From an uncultured Candidatus Saccharibacteria bacterium (lineage in GTDB: Bacteria > Patescibacteriota > Saccharimonadia > Saccharimonadales > Saccharimonadaceae): DNA of 64,000 bases. The stretch spans positions 43,752-107,751 of the forward strand of contig CAMJKD010000003.1 of NCBI GenBank assembly GCA_946406315.1, given 5' to 3'. The translations under genes and the position numbers were made by a program. Shown here piece by piece: positions 11,619 to 19,130 of the stretch (its first letter is position 1; each line of letters starts with the position of its first letter). A model generated the notes under the pieces. The model searched no databases. It saw only the letters and a program-made list of their open reading frames with translations, and was not told where the DNA came from.

Positions 11619-11945
11619 ATGCCAGAGAAAGCAAAAGGCGAAGGTCTCAAGATTCGCATTCGCCTCAAAGCTTACGATCATCGCTTGATCGACCAAAGCG
11701 CCAAACAAATCGTTGACACCGCTATTCGTACCGGTGCTCAAGTTAGCGGCCCAGTGCCTCTTCCAACCAAGCGCTCAACCTTTACCGTCGTAAAGAGCCC
11801 ACACGTCTACAAGACCGGTGGCGAAGCTTTCGAAATGAAGGTTCATAAGCGGCTTATCGATGTTATCAACGCTACGCCGAAGACGATTGATGCATTGCAA
11901 AATCTCTCTTTGCCAGCCGGCGTCGATGCTGAAATTAAGATGTAA
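11619..11945 (+). CDS. rpsJ: 30S ribosomal protein S10
   Basis: [40 protein letters not shown]. Confidence 0.98.
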
Positions 11946-11949
11946 TCAC

Positions 11950-11987
11950 TACAAAAAATCCACTTCTGTTATAGGGGTGGATTTTTT
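11950..11987 (+). terminator. Terminator after rpsJ
   Basis: aaaaatccacttctgttataggggtggatttttt hairpin. Confidence 0.8.
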
Positions 11988-11988
11988 A

Positions 11989-12195
11989 TTATTCATATTC
12001 GATAATTTGCCACTCTGGCCAAATATAGCTTTTCAGACCATGTTCAACAGCGTGTGTAGAATTGGCATGTAGTTCCGCTAGGTCAACCTTATCTAGCGCG
12101 CCTTTAACCATAATCACATCATACGGTACGCACTCATTGTCTTGACAATACGAATAAGTATGATATTTTATATCTAATGCACCGTGCGCGGGGCA
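11989..12195 (-). pseudogene. Probable 5'-truncated gene remnant
   Basis: Frame reads CPAHGALDIKYHTYSYCQDNECVPYDVIMVKGALDKVDLAELHANSTHAVEHGLKSYIWPEWQIIEYE*; stop TAA just upstream and no start codon before an internal ATG. Confidence 0.4.
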
Positions 12196-12241
12196 TAGTT
12201 ATTTTATGTCTTGATTCTACTACGGAAAGGAAGTGATTAGG

Positions 12242-13039
12242 TTGAGAGTTAGGAATATAGAAGTGGGACCTCGCATTGGCGAAGCTTCGAAGTTCCGAAT
12301 TTACCTTGGCGCGATGGATGGCGGACAGTCTGTAATCTTGAAAGTGGCGAAGACATTTAAAGATGGCGACATTCTCGCTGGAGAAGCCAGCGAATTCAAT
12401 ATTCTGAGCTCTTTTGCGGAGCAGATAGCGAAGCTTGAAGCGAATCAAGGCGGAGGCAACTCCCACTACGACTGGCTTTTTGCGAAACTACTGTCTTCGT
12501 TTATGGAACCAACTCAGGGGGATCGTCGTATTAACGTCTTTATGGCGCCCGATACTGACATTGGTGAGTTATTCCCGTTAACGAAGCTACACGCCGAAGT
12601 CGAAATTGATACTCGTACAAGTATCTGGATTTTTGGACGTTTTCTTAAGTTTTATAGCTTTTTCGAGCTATTAGCAGCCTCGGGAGATAATCCTATTGCC
12701 AGATACCCAATCTTCTCGCCCGATGATTATCTTATTGGGCCAGAAAAGCACCGTTTAATCTACTACAACTTCTCTGGAGATATAGCAGATGTGGTGGCCG
12801 ACGACTTTGTCAGGGCTATCTCGAAGTTTATTCTCGACTGGGTTGTTGTTGGGGATAGTTCCTCCGAGCAGGAATATCTTGAACTGCTTGAGGATTTTTC
12901 GGAGTTTGGTCGCAATTCGTTTGAACAAGCCCATAGAGATCTCTATACACTTGTAAAAAGGTGTTGGGGGATTCAATATTATCCTTTTACTTATCGCAAA
13001 CACGATACTGGCATTTGGAAAAAAATTGAGGAGGATTAA
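12242..13039 (+). CDS. Protein-kinase-like (possibly pseudokinase) protein
   Basis: IGEASKFRIYLGAMDGGQSVILKVAKTF...GEASEFNIL resembles a Gly-rich loop, VAxK lysine and alphaC Glu; likely TTG start 12242 after ggaaaggaag (track start 12233 overlaps the RBS). Confidence 0.5.
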   Translation: MRVRNIEVGPRIGEASKFRIYLGAMDGGQSVILKVAKTFKDGDILAGEASEFNILSSFAEQIAKLEANQGGGNSHYDWLFAKLLSSFMEPTQGDRRINVFMAPDTDIGELFPLTKLHAEVEIDTRTSIWIFGRFLKFYSFFELLAASGDNPIARYPIFSPDDYLIGPEKHRLIYYNFSGDIADVVADDFVRAISKFILDWVVVGDSSSEQEYLELLEDFSEFGRNSFEQAHRDLYTLVKRCWGIQYYPFTYRKHDTGIWKKIEED

Positions 13040-13041
13040 GG

Positions 13042-14139
13042 ATGGGATATGGAACCTTTTCTGTAGACAGCTACCAGCAGGCACGCCGCGATTATGGCGT
13101 CACTCAGAGCACTAATGTAACCAGGCAGGCGGAAGAACGCGCTCGGCAGACCGGACATCTCAGCGAGATTGTAGACCCTGCCGTTAGCCCGATTCGACGT
13201 TCCAAGATTCGCCTGAACCCTCGCCGGAAGAAGTGGATTGCTACGCTTGGCTGCCCGATGGATATTGAAGTCAGTTGCGATACCACTGGATCTATGGGCG
13301 GCGAAGTTGACACGGAAATGAATGTTCTTCCTGAGCTATACGACGCTGTGGCTAAGGTTTTGCCAGGATATGACCCGCAACTTTGTCTAGGCATTTTCGG
13401 CGATTGCGGCGATGATTTCGTTATGTGTCGCCCTCAGTTTGAAATGGAGGCACCTAAGATTGTAAATTATCTTAAGGAAATGGCGCCTCAGCGCGGTGGA
13501 AACGGCAATCACGGAGAAGATCCTCAGTATGCCATGTTCGCGCGCGCCTATCTGACCGATGCTTACACTAATCGTATTGGTCTTAAAGGATATCACTTTA
13601 TCGTTACGGATGAGCCTTACCATAATCATTTGCGAAGGGAAGAAATTCGGCGCATTTTCGGAAGTGAAATCTTCGAAAACGAGTTAAAAGATATGCGAAG
13701 CGAGCTTCCTTCTGTCGATGATATGGTGAGCGAACTGAAACGGAAAACACATCAGTTTGTTCTGGTAATGAGCGACTACTACTATAATGATACAATCGAT
13801 CTTTGGAGTTGCCTCTGTGGCGAAAAATCCGTTATCATTATCGATTCCACCTCACAGTTGCCGGCGGTTATCTCCGCTATCATTGGATTGACCGAAGGCA
13901 CAATTGAGGTGGTCGAACTAGAGGAGCATCTCGGCTTGTTTGGTAATGACCGCCTGATTAGGCAGCTTTCCAGTATCGATATCGGCGCACAGGCGAAACT
14001 TCGTCATGCGTTGCCGCATCCGGTTCCTAAAGCGGGCGATATTTTCGCTAATAAGGGTGATATCTGGCCAATTCGACCAGGAGAGGCCTCCGATGATGAT
14101 AAATCCGTGGAACCTCCAGACCGTATTGAGTATTTATAA
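13042..14139 (+). CDS. von Willebrand factor A (vWA)-like domain protein
   Basis: MDIEVSCDTTGSMGG (MIDAS-like D-x-T-x-S), followed by alternating hydrophobic strands; RBS gaggagg; 2 nt after the previous stop. Confidence 0.7.
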   Translation: MGYGTFSVDSYQQARRDYGVTQSTNVTRQAEERARQTGHLSEIVDPAVSPIRRSKIRLNPRRKKWIATLGCPMDIEVSCDTTGSMGGEVDTEMNVLPELYDAVAKVLPGYDPQLCLGIFGDCGDDFVMCRPQFEMEAPKIVNYLKEMAPQRGGNGNHGEDPQYAMFARAYLTDAYTNRIGLKGYHFIVTDEPYHNHLRREEIRRIFGSEIFENELKDMRSELPSVDDMVSELKRKTHQFVLVMSDYYYNDTIDLWSCLCGEKSVIIIDSTSQLPAVISAIIGLTEGTIEVVELEEHLGLFGNDRLIRQLSSIDIGAQAKLRHALPHPVPKAGDIFANKGDIWPIRPGEASDDDKSVEPPDRIEYL

Positions 14140-14187
14140 TCAAGATCTATTAACAATCTGGTTCTAAAAGACTCTAGGAGGTGTATT

Positions 14188-15507
14188 ATGCTTGAGAAAA
14201 TTTACGTCGTTACCGACCTCGGTCCAGGTGACGGAGGTAAGGGTAGTATAGTACATACGCTTTCGTGCAATCTTGACGCTTCTGTCATTATTAAGCGCGG
14301 AGGCGCACAGGGCTCTCATGGCGTGCGTACCTCCTACGGAGAAAACTTCAATTTCTCACAATGGGGTTGCGGGACGCTAGAGGGGGTACCGACTTTTTTA
14401 TCTGAACAAATGGTAATTTCACCAGTTGGTCTCAGCAATGAGTCCGAAGCCTTGAAGCGACTTGGCATCTACGATCCATTCGTGCTTTTGTCCTGTGATC
14501 CGGCTTGCATATCAGCTACACCTTTTCATCGGATTTCATCTCAACTCGAAGAACTTCTGCTTGGAGATAATCCGCGCGGCACAATCGGAACTGGCGTTGG
14601 CCAAGCTTATCGTATGTCCAAAACACTTGGAGAAGCGGCAACGATTCGGGCTTTCGAACTAAAGAATCGTGAAATTGTCCGCACCAAACTTCAAAAGCAA
14701 CTTGATTATTACAGAGAAAGGTATGCCAAAATCTCTCGAAAAGATGGCTTGCCTAACGATGCTGAATTAATCGACGAGAATCTTAGCTTACTTTATGACG
14801 ACGGATTTTTACCGTATTGTCTTGATTTATTTGAGGACATAGGCAAGAAGCTTCGTTTAGAAAGTTTAGACGAGGTTCTAAAAGGCGATGGTTTAGGTAT
14901 AGTCGAATGTTCGCATGGAGTTCTTACTGACGCAGAAACGGGGCTAAAGCCTCACGTAAGCGCAATTAGGACTCTCCCGAAGTTCACTACAGAAATGTTA
15001 AGAACGGCAGGTTATGATGGCGAAATCGTCAATTATGCCGTTCATCGTGCCTATGAAATCCGTCATGGGGCCGGCCCGATGCCGACTTATGATCCAGAGT
15101 TCACGTCACGGATGCTTCCGGGCAGTCACAAAGATGAAAATCGCTGGCAAGGCATCGTCCGTGCCGGAGCACTTGATCTGAATCTTATGCGGTATGCCCT
15201 TGACACAAGTGGCGACGTGACGTTTGACGGGCTTTGCCTTACCTGGTTTGATCAAGTTTTGGCATGCAATCGCATTTGGTCGCTCTGTATTAATTATAAA
15301 AATGCACCAGCGACCGGCGAATCATATGTCGATTTTCTCAAAAGGGCTGAGCCTAACATAATTGAATATTTCATCGAGAAACCTATTCTAAAGCGGGAGC
15401 TTTTCGAATTCATCGGCGACACGCTCGATAAGTTCTTAAATATTCCGCTTAAGTTACTCTCAATTGGGCCAACCGAGCTAGACAAAGTCAGCTCGAATAA
15501 AGAATAA
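14188..15507 (+). CDS. Divergent adenylosuccinate synthetase (PurA)-like protein
   Basis: IYVVTDLGPGDGGKGSIVHTL...IIKRGGAQGSHGV...GTIGTGVGQAYR aligns by eye with PurA GDEGKGK...GGHNAGH...GTTGRGIGPAY; RBS aggagg. Confidence 0.75.
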   Translation: MLEKIYVVTDLGPGDGGKGSIVHTLSCNLDASVIIKRGGAQGSHGVRTSYGENFNFSQWGCGTLEGVPTFLSEQMVISPVGLSNESEALKRLGIYDPFVLLSCDPACISATPFHRISSQLEELLLGDNPRGTIGTGVGQAYRMSKTLGEAATIRAFELKNREIVRTKLQKQLDYYRERYAKISRKDGLPNDAELIDENLSLLYDDGFLPYCLDLFEDIGKKLRLESLDEVLKGDGLGIVECSHGVLTDAETGLKPHVSAIRTLPKFTTEMLRTAGYDGEIVNYAVHRAYEIRHGAGPMPTYDPEFTSRMLPGSHKDENRWQGIVRAGALDLNLMRYALDTSGDVTFDGLCLTWFDQVLACNRIWSLCINYKNAPATGESYVDFLKRAEPNIIEYFIEKPILKRELFEFIGDTLDKFLNIPLKLLSIGPTELDKVSSNKE

Positions 15508-15520
15508 AGGAGGAAAACCC

Positions 15521-16708
15521 ATGAGTGAAGAAATTAAGAATGTTGTTTCTGAGTCCGAAACTGAGCCCGCAGCTACTACTGTTGCGGATGATGTTTACGC
15601 TAAGCTTGTCGAATATGGCGCCGATAAAGCTATAATCGATAAGATTGTCAATGATCTCGGCGTTGAGACGCTCGAGGATCTGGCGATGCTGGATGAGGGA
15701 GAACTTACTGGCGCCGGCATTAAGCTGGTAAAAGCGAGGAAGCTTCTGGCCGAACTGAGCAATGCTACGGAATCGACTCCGACCGAGAAAGTTGCTGCTT
15801 CTGCGATGGCATTTTCGACCGATTTCAATTCCATCCTGCCGACCGTACCCGACGGGGGTTCTTGGCTGAACTCCCTGCGTCTGGGTGGCGTCCTGAAGGT
15901 GGATCCGAATACTAATATCGCAGCAATCCGTGCCGCACTGGCAGATCACTGCGGTCTCTATCGAATCCCGGACAAACTCGTCAATCTGATGGAGGCGTAC
16001 GCCGATGAAAGCGATGAGCCCGTAAATGATTTGTTCTTCCAGCTGCGCGATCAGATTACAAAACGTGATTATGCTGAGCTGTTCTCGGCCACGAAGGGTC
16101 TGACAGGAGCTTTCGCCACCAAGAAGCGTCGCGAAATGTTCCTGAACAGAGTCGGCGATGATCTCTGGAATGCAATCCGTGAGGCATATCTTCAGCTCGA
16201 CGCTTGGTATAACGCGATGATGGCCGCACAGAACAACCCCAACGTACTGTTTTCTGCCATTACCGGCGTACTGAACGGTGGCGGCATTGGTGTCGGTCTG
16301 AATATTCCGCCGACTGACGGTGTACGCGATGCTGGCGATACTCTGAAAAATGCAATCAACCACGTATTCCGCGGCACCGGCGCACCAGTTGCGGCCGCTC
16401 TCGCACTTGATGCGATGGAGATCGTAAAGGTACTCGATAACCGCGACCTTCCGGCGATGATTGGCGTAGCCAACCGTGATCAGATGCTGCGCAAGCTCGG
16501 GGTTAATATTTCCCCGAATTACGCCCGTCTGGAGCAGAACCTGGTTCGCTTCGTACTCAGCTATATCGAATTCAGCGATAATGGCGCCGCGAATGAAGTG
16601 CAGTACCTGTCCTCGCTGTGGCAGCTGGGCGCGCAGATCAACTGGGACAGCCTGATCGGCAAGACCAGCACTGGTGTCAGCAGCATCGGAGGCAAGCGCG
16701 AGCTGTAA
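15521..16708 (+). CDS. Hypothetical protein with N-terminal SAM-like helical domain
   Basis: KLVEYGADKAIIDKIVNDLGVETLEDLAMLDEGELTGAGIKLVKARKLLAEL resembles SAM/HhH domains; RBS aaaggagg. Confidence 0.6.
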   Translation: MSEEIKNVVSESETEPAATTVADDVYAKLVEYGADKAIIDKIVNDLGVETLEDLAMLDEGELTGAGIKLVKARKLLAELSNATESTPTEKVAASAMAFSTDFNSILPTVPDGGSWLNSLRLGGVLKVDPNTNIAAIRAALADHCGLYRIPDKLVNLMEAYADESDEPVNDLFFQLRDQITKRDYAELFSATKGLTGAFATKKRREMFLNRVGDDLWNAIREAYLQLDAWYNAMMAAQNNPNVLFSAITGVLNGGGIGVGLNIPPTDGVRDAGDTLKNAINHVFRGTGAPVAAALALDAMEIVKVLDNRDLPAMIGVANRDQMLRKLGVNISPNYARLEQNLVRFVLSYIEFSDNGAANEVQYLSSLWQLGAQINWDSLIGKTSTGVSSIGGKREL

Positions 16709-16743
16709 TTATCTTCGTCTTTAGAATCTGAAACTATCAAAAA

Positions 16744-16766
16744 GGGACCCTCTCGTAGGGTCCCAT
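16744..16766. terminator. Terminator hairpin between convergent genes
   Basis: gggaccctctcgtagggtccc, A-rich before and T-rich after. Confidence 0.75.
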
Positions 16767-16776
16767 TTTCATGACC

Positions 16777-17961
16777 TTAAAGCCAAACATACTTTGCATA
16801 AAGCATAGTTGCTATTCGACGATACTCGTCGATATAGAACGGGCAATCGCCATCCATTTCTGGCGGAATATAGAATTCGTCTATCCCGGTAAACCTAGAG
16901 AAACCTTTATGAAGTAGGCGACATTGGAGCAAATCGCTTTCAAGACGCTCAATCGCCTGGCGCCTAATCTCGGGATATGAAATATAGTATACCGAATCGG
17001 TATAGATGCCCGTTATCTGATTTGCTATCTGTTCCAGCTCATCTGTAACAGCATAGCCACCAAGCCATATGGTATTGAAATAGACATGTGTAGCGTGGGG
17101 GCTTCCGGGTCTAAATTCAGGATCTAGCTCTAATTGTTGCAATGTCCAGATGTCTAAATCCGAGTATATAGTTCCATATCCTTTGAGTTGAGATCCGCCA
17201 ACAAGAACGATTTCGGACGGTTCTAATCGCGACGATATTTCTTCAAGTTGATGCTCAATCACAGGAATGTTATCAGAGAACGGACCTTCGAGCTTAGCTG
17301 TCGGAGTTAAAGGCGTCGAAGACTTATTGCGCTCATTGAGCCATTCTAGCCGTTTTTTTGAGATATAAAGCGGCTCGGGTTTCTTCCTTGCGGGCAAATG
17401 AGCGGTTTTCGAAGTTAGTTTGTACAAATCTTCGTACCTCAGGATTTTATTCAGACGAATGTATTCCCAGGTATCTTTAAAGCTCTGGAGTAATACTCCA
17501 TCGTTGCTATTATCTCTCAGGATTTTTAAGATTTGTCGGTCATTTATATATCCGTATTTAAGTAGCCACGGCGTAAGATGGGCGCATTTTACAACACGCT
17601 CAAGTCCACCGCGCGGCCTAGCGTCAGGCTCGAGCCAATCACCGACGTGAAAATTCTCGCGCACATCTCTTACATTGAGAAGTCTGTACCACGCATCGAC
17701 ATATGCTCTTTTGAATGTCTCTGGGGCGTCTTCGAGGAATCTTAACGGAAGATATAGTAAAATTCTTTCAGAGTCCCTGTTCCAAAGCAAATCTTCACAG
17801 GCACTATAATAGCATTCACGTTCAAGCGGTATATCGCGAGCGTTTCTCGGATTAGCCTCAAGGAAACGACAAATGTCTTCGGCCGCCCTCTTTCGCGTCC
17901 CTAAGCCATTATTTGCGGCATTATATCTTCGCTCAATTGCTGGTATCAATAATTTAATCAC
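16777..17961 (-). CDS. Nucleotidyltransferase-fold protein
   Basis: EIVLVGGSQLKGYGTIYSDLDIWTLQ matches the polymerase-beta-type NTase pattern hG[GS]x(9-13)DhD. Confidence 0.65.
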   Translation of the reverse strand: MIKLLIPAIERRYNAANNGLGTRKRAAEDICRFLEANPRNARDIPLERECYYSACEDLLWNRDSERILLYLPLRFLEDAPETFKRAYVDAWYRLLNVRDVRENFHVGDWLEPDARPRGGLERVVKCAHLTPWLLKYGYINDRQILKILRDNSNDGVLLQSFKDTWEYIRLNKILRYEDLYKLTSKTAHLPARKKPEPLYISKKRLEWLNERNKSSTPLTPTAKLEGPFSDNIPVIEHQLEEISSRLEPSEIVLVGGSQLKGYGTIYSDLDIWTLQQLELDPEFRPGSPHATHVYFNTIWLGGYAVTDELEQIANQITGIYTDSVYYISYPEIRRQAIERLESDLLQCRLLHKGFSRFTGIDEFYIPPEMDGDCPFYIDEYRRIATMLYAKYVWL

Positions 17962-18139
17962 AGAATACCCCCCTTTCGGTCATTTTAATGTGCTAGAACA
18001 TATATTATATAATAATTATAGCAATATATCCATAGTTAATATTGACAAAATAAGCAAATGTACTATTATATACACAACAAAGGGGTGTTCCTTTAGAGCT
18101 TAATTCAATCTAGTAGAATAAAAAACGGGGGTGAAATAA

Positions 18140-18322
18140 ATGAATAAAAAAGAATTTATAGTCGATATTGTGGGGGTCATTCTTAACGCATTTGCTGCCG
18201 GATTAGGTGTCGCAAATGCTCTTATAAATGACGCGTCATACTGGATTCTTTTTGGATTTAATATTGCATTTGCGATTATTTGTGCACTTCGCGCATATGC
18301 ACTTTATGTCTCCGACAATTAA
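18140..18322 (+). CDS. Small two-helix membrane protein (60 aa)
   Basis: RBS gggggtg before ATG; hydrophobic; terminator-like gagcccataagggctcttttt follows. Confidence 0.6.
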   Translation: MNKKEFIVDIVGVILNAFAAGLGVANALINDASYWILFGFNIAFAIICALRAYALYVSDN

Positions 18323-18509
18323 GCCACACCGAGCCCATAAGGGCTCTTTTTATCTCTTAAATTTGTTTGACAAAATACGTTCATCTATGCTATAATCCGT
18401 CTCGTATATTATCAACGTAACGGTCGCATTGGCGCAAGAGGTACTGGTCCGTCAATTGACGGAGACCACTCATAAGCCAATCGATTTTAATGGGAAAGGA
18501 CGCCCACAG

Positions 18510-19130
18510 ATGAAAATCATCCTCGGCACCAAGATTGGTATGACCCAGATCATCGGCGATGACGGTGTAGTTACTCCTGTAACTATCCTTCAAGCCGGCC
18601 CATGCACAGTGACTCAGACTAAGTCGGTCGAAAAAGACGGCTATAGCGCTGTGCAATTGGCATTTGGTCAGGGTAAGAATCTGAGCAAGGCCGTGTCCGG
18701 ACACGTCAAAAAATCCGGAAAAGATATCAACCCTAAACACATCCGTGAATTCCGCGTCGAGAATATCCCAGAAGATGTCACGCTTGGTAGCGAAATAACC
18801 GTCGCCAGCTTTACGCTTGGTGATAAGGTCCAAGTTACAGGTACGAGCAAAGGTAAGGGCTTTGCCGGTACCGTTAAGCGCCACAACTTCATGGAATCTC
18901 GTAACACGCACGGTTTCAAAGGTGACATTCGCAAGGTCGGTTCCATTGGTTCCATGTATCCCCAGAAGGTCTTCAAGGGCAAGAAGATGGCTGGTCGGAT
19001 GGGTCATGACCGTGTAACCGTCAAGAACCTCGTTGTCTCCTATATCGACACCGATCACAACCTTATTGGTCTCAAAGGCGCTGTGCCTGGTCCAAACAAA
19101 GGTCTCGTAATGGTGGAGGGAAAGGACTAA
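18510..19130 (+). CDS. rplC: 50S ribosomal protein L3
   Basis: MKIILGTKIGMTQI; start moved from track 18429 to ATG 18510 after gggaaagga. Confidence 0.97.
   Translation: MKIILGTKIGMTQIIGDDGVVTPVTILQAGPCTVTQTKSVEKDGYSAVQLAFGQGKNLSKAVSGHVKKSGKDINPKHIREFRVENIPEDVTLGSEITVASFTLGDKVQVTGTSKGKGFAGTVKRHNFMESRNTHGFKGDIRKVGSIGSMYPQKVFKGKKMAGRMGHDRVTVKNLVVSYIDTDHNLIGLKGAVPGPNKGLVMVEGKD

Follow-up and report, generated by a model that had tools for sequence, protein, structure and literature searches.

Proteins with a von Willebrand A (vWA) domain are at the centre of bacterial conflict systems, some of which contain dead kinases and in which J-domains also occur (PMC7159879). In TerY-type triads, a vWA protein is encoded with a kinase and a PP2C phosphatase. 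Other bacterial systems combine a vWA protein and a NUDIX-winged-helix regulator of the NrtR family, which senses ADP-ribose or NAD-derived nucleotides, with an ADP-ribosylglycohydrolase and a phosphatase (PMC9503650). As for adenylosuccinate synthetase (PurA), phages such as S-2L, Bhz20 and Nubia carry the paralogue PurZ, whose partners are DatZ, MazZ or DpoZ. PurZ is recognized by a Ser (or Gly) at the position of Asp13 (PMC12884076). Here we analysed a stretch of 64,000 nucleotides (the window) from an uncultured Candidatus Saccharibacteria bacterium (assembly GCA_946406315.1, contig CAMJKD010000003.1, positions 43,752 to 107,751), in which four genes for a kinase-like protein (KIN), a vWA protein (VWA), a PurA-like protein (PURA) and a protein with a SAM-like domain (SAM) are followed by a convergent gene for a nucleotidyltransferase-like protein (NT). 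We found that KIN, VWA and PURA form a conserved triad shared by bacteria and phages, and that its PurA-like enzyme is probably neither PurA nor PurZ.

Loci were found through VWA alone and then searched with profiles of the other module proteins. Scanning genome contigs with the VWA profile yielded at least 393 relatives, and the analysis retained 80 of them (30 loci from the Candidate Phyla Radiation (CPR) and 50 from other bacteria); 80 of the 165 relatives from viral contigs were likewise retained. Among the 128 loci with room (at least 3.5 kb on each side, partners being counted on the same strand within 4 kb), PURA stood beside VWA in 125 (CPR, 22/23; other bacteria, 45/46; viral, 58/59) and KIN accompanied VWA in 103 (22/23, 41/46 and 40/59, respectively). 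This arrangement is far above chance, and the pairing of PurA-like and vWA proteins across CPR and other phyla, which an earlier note made from the sequence of the window had proposed as a check, is evident. The triad occurs in CPR phyla, Actinomycetota, Myxococcota, Bacillota and large phages, and no further conserved neighbour was found in more than 10 of the ~160 loci. Within the genus of the window, VWA, PURA and SAM are found together in 14 genomes, at differing chromosomal sites; the presence and absence in related strains, another check named in that note, is thus patchy, and the cassette is horizontally mobile.

Around this core, the accessory genes differ between groups. A NUDIX gene accompanies 42 of the 46 non-CPR bacterial loci with room; both NrtR_WHD and NUDIX were recognized by Pfam in the Actinoplanes and Wildermuthbacteria copies, and the Lentzea copy gave a weak NUDIX match only. 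No such NUDIX-winged-helix regulator was found in the window cassette. On the other hand, SAM and NT were restricted to CPR in the loci scanned, save one viral contig, and NT lies beside the cassette in 23/23 CPR loci with room and in every neighbourhood of the genus reaching that far. At one Wildermuthbacteria locus (L060), the six genes follow one another as NrtR, KIN, VWA, PURA, SAM and convergent NT, which links the CPR form with the bacterial one. The cassette of the window thus consists of five genes and the conserved core is the triad, joined by the NrtR regulator in other bacteria. The four genes of the operon described before are real, but this fifth, convergent gene had been overlooked. 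NT is an accessory and not a strict member of the module, because four genomes of the genus have it without the rest of the cassette.

Some loci deviate from these arrangements. The orphan NT genes (L293-L296, in G017, G019, G004 and G020) are near ribosomal-protein genes, either in the rpsG region or in the spc operon beside rplF, and are possibly cassette remnants; a subsystem of NT and SAM only was considered from them and dropped, since NT alone is present there. In L047:6761-9073, VWA and NT are side by side and KIN, PURA and SAM are missing, which looks like a decayed cassette. A second KIN homologue lies about 4 kb past the NT end of one cassette (L034:14836-15681, in G010). In Myxococcaceae (L085, L088, L089 and L104), two VWA genes flank PURA and the NUDIX regulator was undetected.

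PURA matched Pfam Adenylsucc_synt (PF00709, 1.2e-29) and PHROG 1211 (6.8e-36), and its family profile retrieved PurA structures from the PDB down to 3e-56. In the maximum-likelihood tree, all cassette and phage PURA sequences form one clade (support 100/99), apart from the clades of housekeeping PurA and of PurZ (100/99 for the latter). Saccharibacteria copies at two loci (L059 and L069) cluster with other CPR phyla, not with the rumen Saccharibacteria clade. With the residues numbered after E. coli PurA from an alignment at about 25-30% identity, the catalytic Asp13 and His41 are kept in the PURA of the window and in all aligned cassette and phage members. The family also keeps Lys16 and the P-loop GDxGKG, and Gln224 is kept outside CPR and is His in CPR. 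In E. coli PurA, the 5'-phosphate of inosine monophosphate (IMP) is contacted by N38, T129, R143 and T239, and the aspartate loop contains T300, T301, R303 and R305. Only T239 is kept among these positions, as Thr or Ser. Asn38 is replaced by Gln in nearly all members, Val273 by His and Thr300-Thr301 mostly by an aromatic residue and Gln ((W/Y)Q), and Arg143, Arg303, Arg305 and Lys331 are unconserved; in the E. coli enzyme, the positions altered here contact the IMP 5'-phosphate, the aspartate loop or the guanine of GTP.

Because Asp13 and His41 are kept and the aspartate loop and most of the 5'-phosphate contacts are lost, PURA is probably neither PurA nor PurZ. Judging from these residues, it keeps the core that phosphorylates a 6-oxopurine with a nucleoside triphosphate, the phosphate then being displaced by an amine, has residues specific to its own family in place of the pockets for the IMP 5'-phosphate and for aspartate, and likely uses neither IMP nor aspartate. 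The nucleotide-ligating enzyme proposed in the earlier note is therefore plausible, but with substrates unlikely to be the usual ones.

If PURA nevertheless served ordinary purine metabolism, it would yield AMP from IMP by salvage and the other genes would regulate it. The clear PurA fold and the kept catalytic Asp and His agree with this, as does the fact that PURA is the only PurA homologue in the genome of the window, which is 99.5% complete. However, the same genome has no PF00206 lyase, nor was one found in any cassette-bearing genome of the genus, and PurB is missing from 19 of the 22 cassette-bearing CPR genomes, although gene absences in these mostly metagenome-assembled genomes are statistical. 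All four other bacterial hosts tested have PurB, and a separate normal PurA was present beside the cassette PURA in 9/9 non-CPR hosts tested. A role in purine housekeeping is unlikely because the host genome is devoid of adenylosuccinate lyase, and the altered pocket and the patchy, mobile and phage-borne distribution make the salvage explanation very improbable. Housekeeping purine synthesis was rejected as a candidate on the grounds of the missing PurB and the altered pocket residues, in agreement with the view of the earlier note that the cassette is not housekeeping.

A second possibility is a modification like that of Z genomes, in which PURA would make an unusual purine deoxynucleotide to be put into phage or cell DNA. 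The Z phages, with PurZ, give a precedent for the use of this fold in base modification, many large phages carry the triad, and their homologues are annotated as PurZ-like, namely as "2-aminooxy adenylosuccinate synthetase" in PHROG 1211 and in the GenBank records of Bixzunavirus. Against this, the PurZ sequences examined have the diagnostic Ser13 in 4/4 and retain Asn38, Arg143, Val273, Thr300 and Arg305, in line with PMC12884076, whereas the enzymes of the present system have Asp13 and are found with VWA and KIN. The separate clade and Asp13 led us to reject PurZ membership for PURA. Moreover, partners of the DatZ, MazZ or dutZ type or a dedicated DNA polymerase are not recurrent neighbours of the triad in the ~160 loci, in contrast to S-2L and Acinetobacter phage Bhz20, which do have partner genes of the Z pathway, and the cassette is carried by cells without PurB. 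We regard such a modification as improbable. The PurZ-type names are probably wrong, because the phage homologues keep the PurA-type Asp13 and sit in the cassette clade.

A solo PURA homologue without VWA (L040:7778-9220, in G023) has Ser at both Asp13 and Lys16 and is probably inactive or repurposed. Next to it is a gene for a 547-aa protein, whose family also occurs near other cassettes.

The domains that had been assigned to the four proteins were supported, though direct look-ups of the KIN, VWA and SAM proteins of the window in Pfam, NCBIfam and PADLOC gave nothing usable. KIN matched a PHROG kinase family (E = 8.4e-5) and, weakly, solved protein kinase structures by sequence (0.0066), and its relatives matched Pfam Pkinase in 13/41 and DnaJ in 5/41. 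Outside CPR, the catalytic Asp of the HRD motif is replaced, chiefly by Ala, and kept in only 2/49 sequences, and the VAIK lysine is retained in 43/49; the HRD motif is unrecognizable in CPR sequences. The HPD motif of J-domains is present in 30/49 non-CPR and 0/24 CPR sequences. Because the HRD Asp is missing in nearly all members, the alignments identify KIN as a pseudokinase family and not an active kinase, which corrects the kinase-like sensor of the earlier note.

For VWA, Pfam gave no usable match, and the search of solved structures by sequence found none for VWA or NT. The AlphaFold2 model of VWA from 50 homologues is, by contrast with these null results, of high quality (predicted local distance difference test (pLDDT), 93.5; predicted template modelling score, 0.91), and Foldseek, at a probability of 1.00, matched it to the A3 domain of vWF and to beta-I domains of integrins. 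As the residues of the metal ion-dependent adhesion site (MIDAS), D80-x-T82-G-S84 and D190, are conserved, the model indicates a true vWA/MIDAS fold. SAM gave weak matches to SAM_TNK and HHH_5 in Pfam and a weak helix-hairpin-helix (HhH) match to solved structures by sequence (0.15). In its model of moderate quality (pLDDT, 72), residues ~22-83 resemble SAM and NusA HhH domains by Foldseek (ASK3 SAM, template modelling score 0.69 by target), and the helical C-terminal domain had no Foldseek match in the PDB or viral models. NT has the motif GGSxLKGY...SDxD in alignments, and its Wildermuthbacteria relative just clears the Pfam cut-off of NTP_transf_2 with a weak Polbeta match too, which points to a nucleotidyltransferase-like protein of the pol-beta type.

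With regard to the described vWA systems, the triad resembles TerY-type triads in that a vWA protein is encoded with a kinase-like protein. It differs in the dead kinase and in the absence of a PP2C phosphatase from both the operon of the window and the conserved neighbours, and identity with TerY triads, to which the earlier note had drawn a parallel, was rejected on these grounds. Compared with the wider vWA conflict systems (PMC7159879), triad loci have no recurrent PP2C, MoxR or ternary-complex genes and contain the PurA-like ligase instead. The NrtR systems (PMC9503650) share the NUDIX-winged-helix regulator and vWA, which are features of the non-CPR bacterial cassettes and the Wildermuthbacteria one, but their ADP-ribosylglycohydrolase and phosphatase are replaced here by PURA and the pseudokinase. 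As the earlier note supposed, no named system of this composition was found in PADLOC or in the literature searched, subscription papers being outside its reach, and surveys of vWA conflict systems, of NAD and ADP-ribose systems and of jumbo phages do not mention adenylosuccinate synthetase. What is new is the gene composition and the enzyme subfamily, not a proven new mechanism.

The regulator raises another explanation, namely a response to NAD/ADP-ribose or RNA damage, in which PURA and a chaperone unit of vWA and pseudokinase would process or re-ligate damaged purine nucleotides or RNA ends, with NrtR sensing ADP-ribose-type nucleotides. The NUDIX gene beside the triad, of NrtR type where checked, fits this idea, as does the occurrence of vWA and NrtR together in systems countering ADP-ribose (PMC9503650). 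Phage neighbours of the triad include a polynucleotide kinase, NADAR with TROVE, and an NMNAT/NUDIX protein, but each of these comes from a single phage and is unconserved, and neither ADP-ribosylglycohydrolase, Macro nor NADAR is recurrent beside the triad in the ~160 loci. We think this explanation unlikely, though the likeliest of the alternatives.

The mobility of the cassette is most directly seen in the viral contig IMGVR_UViG_3300028454_000294, the only near-identical one among the 80 viral relatives retained of 165. In it, the full set of five genes (VWA 86% identical) is flanked by an integrase on one side and by a holin-endolysin pair on the other, and the contig also has genes for a DNA methyltransferase, large terminase, portal, minor head and tape-measure proteins. 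Because integrase, lysis and structural phage genes are paired with the cassette on this contig, a temperate phage of Saccharibacteria is among its carriers. Contigs with the triad that are classed as viral span 4-512 kb, the label of most being the IMG/VR assignment and one contig being confirmed here. The triad is present in the same order in mycobacteriophages of the genus Bixzunavirus and on plasmids of Tsukamurella, Rhodococcus and Agrobacterium, and Vibrio and Rhizobium phages have the VWA-PURA pair. On the Agrobacterium vitis plasmid pAvCG78a (L020:4803-12627), KIN-VWA-PURA is immediately followed by genes for an AAA ATPase, DUF5682 and DUF4132, with a VgrG gene of a type VI secretion system nearby; these are possibly two linked conflict modules.

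Such phage carriage could mean that the module is a moron, that is, selfish cargo benefiting only the mobile element by lysogeny control or host takeover and later domesticated in hosts. The five-gene copy adjoining the lysis genes, the range of contigs classed as viral and the interleaving of cell and phage PURA in the tree all fit. On the other hand, actinobacterial PURA forms its own clade, and in many Actinomycetota the module, with an NrtR regulator of its own, is a long-standing part of the chromosome, so that we consider this origin rather improbable.

We favour instead a horizontally moving module of conflict between phages and bacteria with the PurA-derived ligase PURA as effector, which we rate at somewhat under an even chance. 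The conflict role is suggested by the mobility and patchy occurrence of the module, by its copies on phages and by its likeness to conflict systems built around vWA proteins, and carriage by temperate and lytic phages fits conflict, and equally counter-defence or host takeover. A fuller version, which we put forward more tentatively, is a widespread and undescribed system of immunity or counter-immunity. In it, a neofunctionalized PurA ligase under the control of vWA and a J-domain pseudokinase would make a new amine-purine conjugate, such as an antimetabolite, an alarm nucleotide or a macromolecule modification, while phage and host are in conflict. PURA would activate a 6-oxopurine and then join an amine other than free aspartate; its purine-bearing substrate would be something other than IMP, such as a larger nucleotide or a conjugate, and the reaction could yield a modified macromolecule or a product that acts as an antimetabolite or a signal. 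VWA, with Mg2+ at its MIDAS, and the pseudokinase, outside CPR frequently with a J-domain, may form a unit without catalytic activity of its own, which would dock and present a client or gate PURA by turning it on. The NrtR repressor may control the operon in most bacteria and release it when NAD/ADP-ribose-type nucleotides rise. In CPR, SAM may act in multimerization or assembly, and NT as an accessory effector or processing enzyme by nucleotidyl transfer. In cells, the module might act against phages or plasmids, and a phage might use it to exclude superinfecting phages, to counter defences or to take over the host.

Several observations weigh against a conflict module of this kind. None of the five proteins matched PADLOC 2.0.0 at E<=1, and the cassette is outside recognized defence islands, the rpsJ-rplC hotspot of relatives holding uncharacterized proteins. 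The kinase-like partner was undetected in about a third of the viral loci, and NT is found without the cassette in the four genomes above. The triad is also present in lytic phages, so that defence is not the sole reading, and the roles of the substrate residues of PURA are transferred from E. coli PurA at low identity (about 25-30%).

Actinobacteria and large phages commonly carry the triad, the widely used mycobacteriophages of cluster C1 among them, and it can be tested in tractable hosts, for example Bixzunavirus in M. smegmatis or the operons of Rhodococcus and Streptomyces. If PURA does make a new purine conjugate, this would add nucleotide chemistry to phage-host conflict. If true, the cassette would also give one of the first hints of the mobile cargo exchanged by CPR bacteria and their phages.

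Table 1. Genes and signals of the cassette, in positions of the window.
Feature	Position	Strand	Description	Basis
Promoter-like site 5' of KIN	12142-12169	+	TTGACA-16-TATTTT, TG ahead of -10	Consensus scan only
KIN	12233-13039	+	Pseudokinase-like, 268 aa	PHROG kinase family match; Pkinase/DnaJ matches of relatives
VWA	13042-14139	+	von Willebrand A/MIDAS protein, 365 aa	MIDAS residues, model and Foldseek
PURA	14188-15507	+	Ligase of adenylosuccinate synthetase fold, separate clade, 439 aa	Pfam, residue table, tree
SAM	15521-16708	+	N-terminal SAM/HhH-like domain and all-helical C-terminal domain, 395 aa	Weak Pfam matches, model, Foldseek
Terminator-like hairpin with T/A tails	16744-16764	both	Common to convergent SAM and NT	
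NT	16777-17961	-	Nucleotidyltransferase-like, 394 aa, convergent to the operon	Neighbourhoods, alignments, Pfam match of a relative

The coordinates of the four open reading frames and the gaps between them (2 nt for KIN/VWA, 48 nt for VWA/PURA and 13 nt for PURA/SAM) hold as first reported, and so does the terminator, whose stem was detected on both strands (Table 1). The true start of KIN may be TTG 12242 instead of 12233, because its relatives begin with M-(K/R)-(I/V)-R-(N/G)-I-E-V. The consensus scan that gave the promoter-like site found a number of sites near that in shuffled sequence.

The five-gene block does lie between rpsJ (11619-11945) and rplC (18429-19130), as the earlier note had it, but the insertion there is not peculiar to the cassette. 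The spacing of the two genes in relatives of the genus ranges from ~155 bp (G022) to 9.3 kb with unrelated contents, and this variation in size and content marks the gap as an insertion hotspot. The other cassette-bearing genomes examined have the cassette at other sites. In some relatives, the hotspot (window 11945-18429; L270-L282) holds single giant open reading frames of 2375 aa (L279:4241-11368), 1470 aa (L274:5505-9917) and 1537 aa (L281:1839-6452). A perfect sigma-70-like promoter (TTGACA-18-TATAAT with TG, 18367-18396) is immediately 5' of rplC, and because of it transcription of the remaining S10 operon genes may be separate from that of rpsJ after the insertion.

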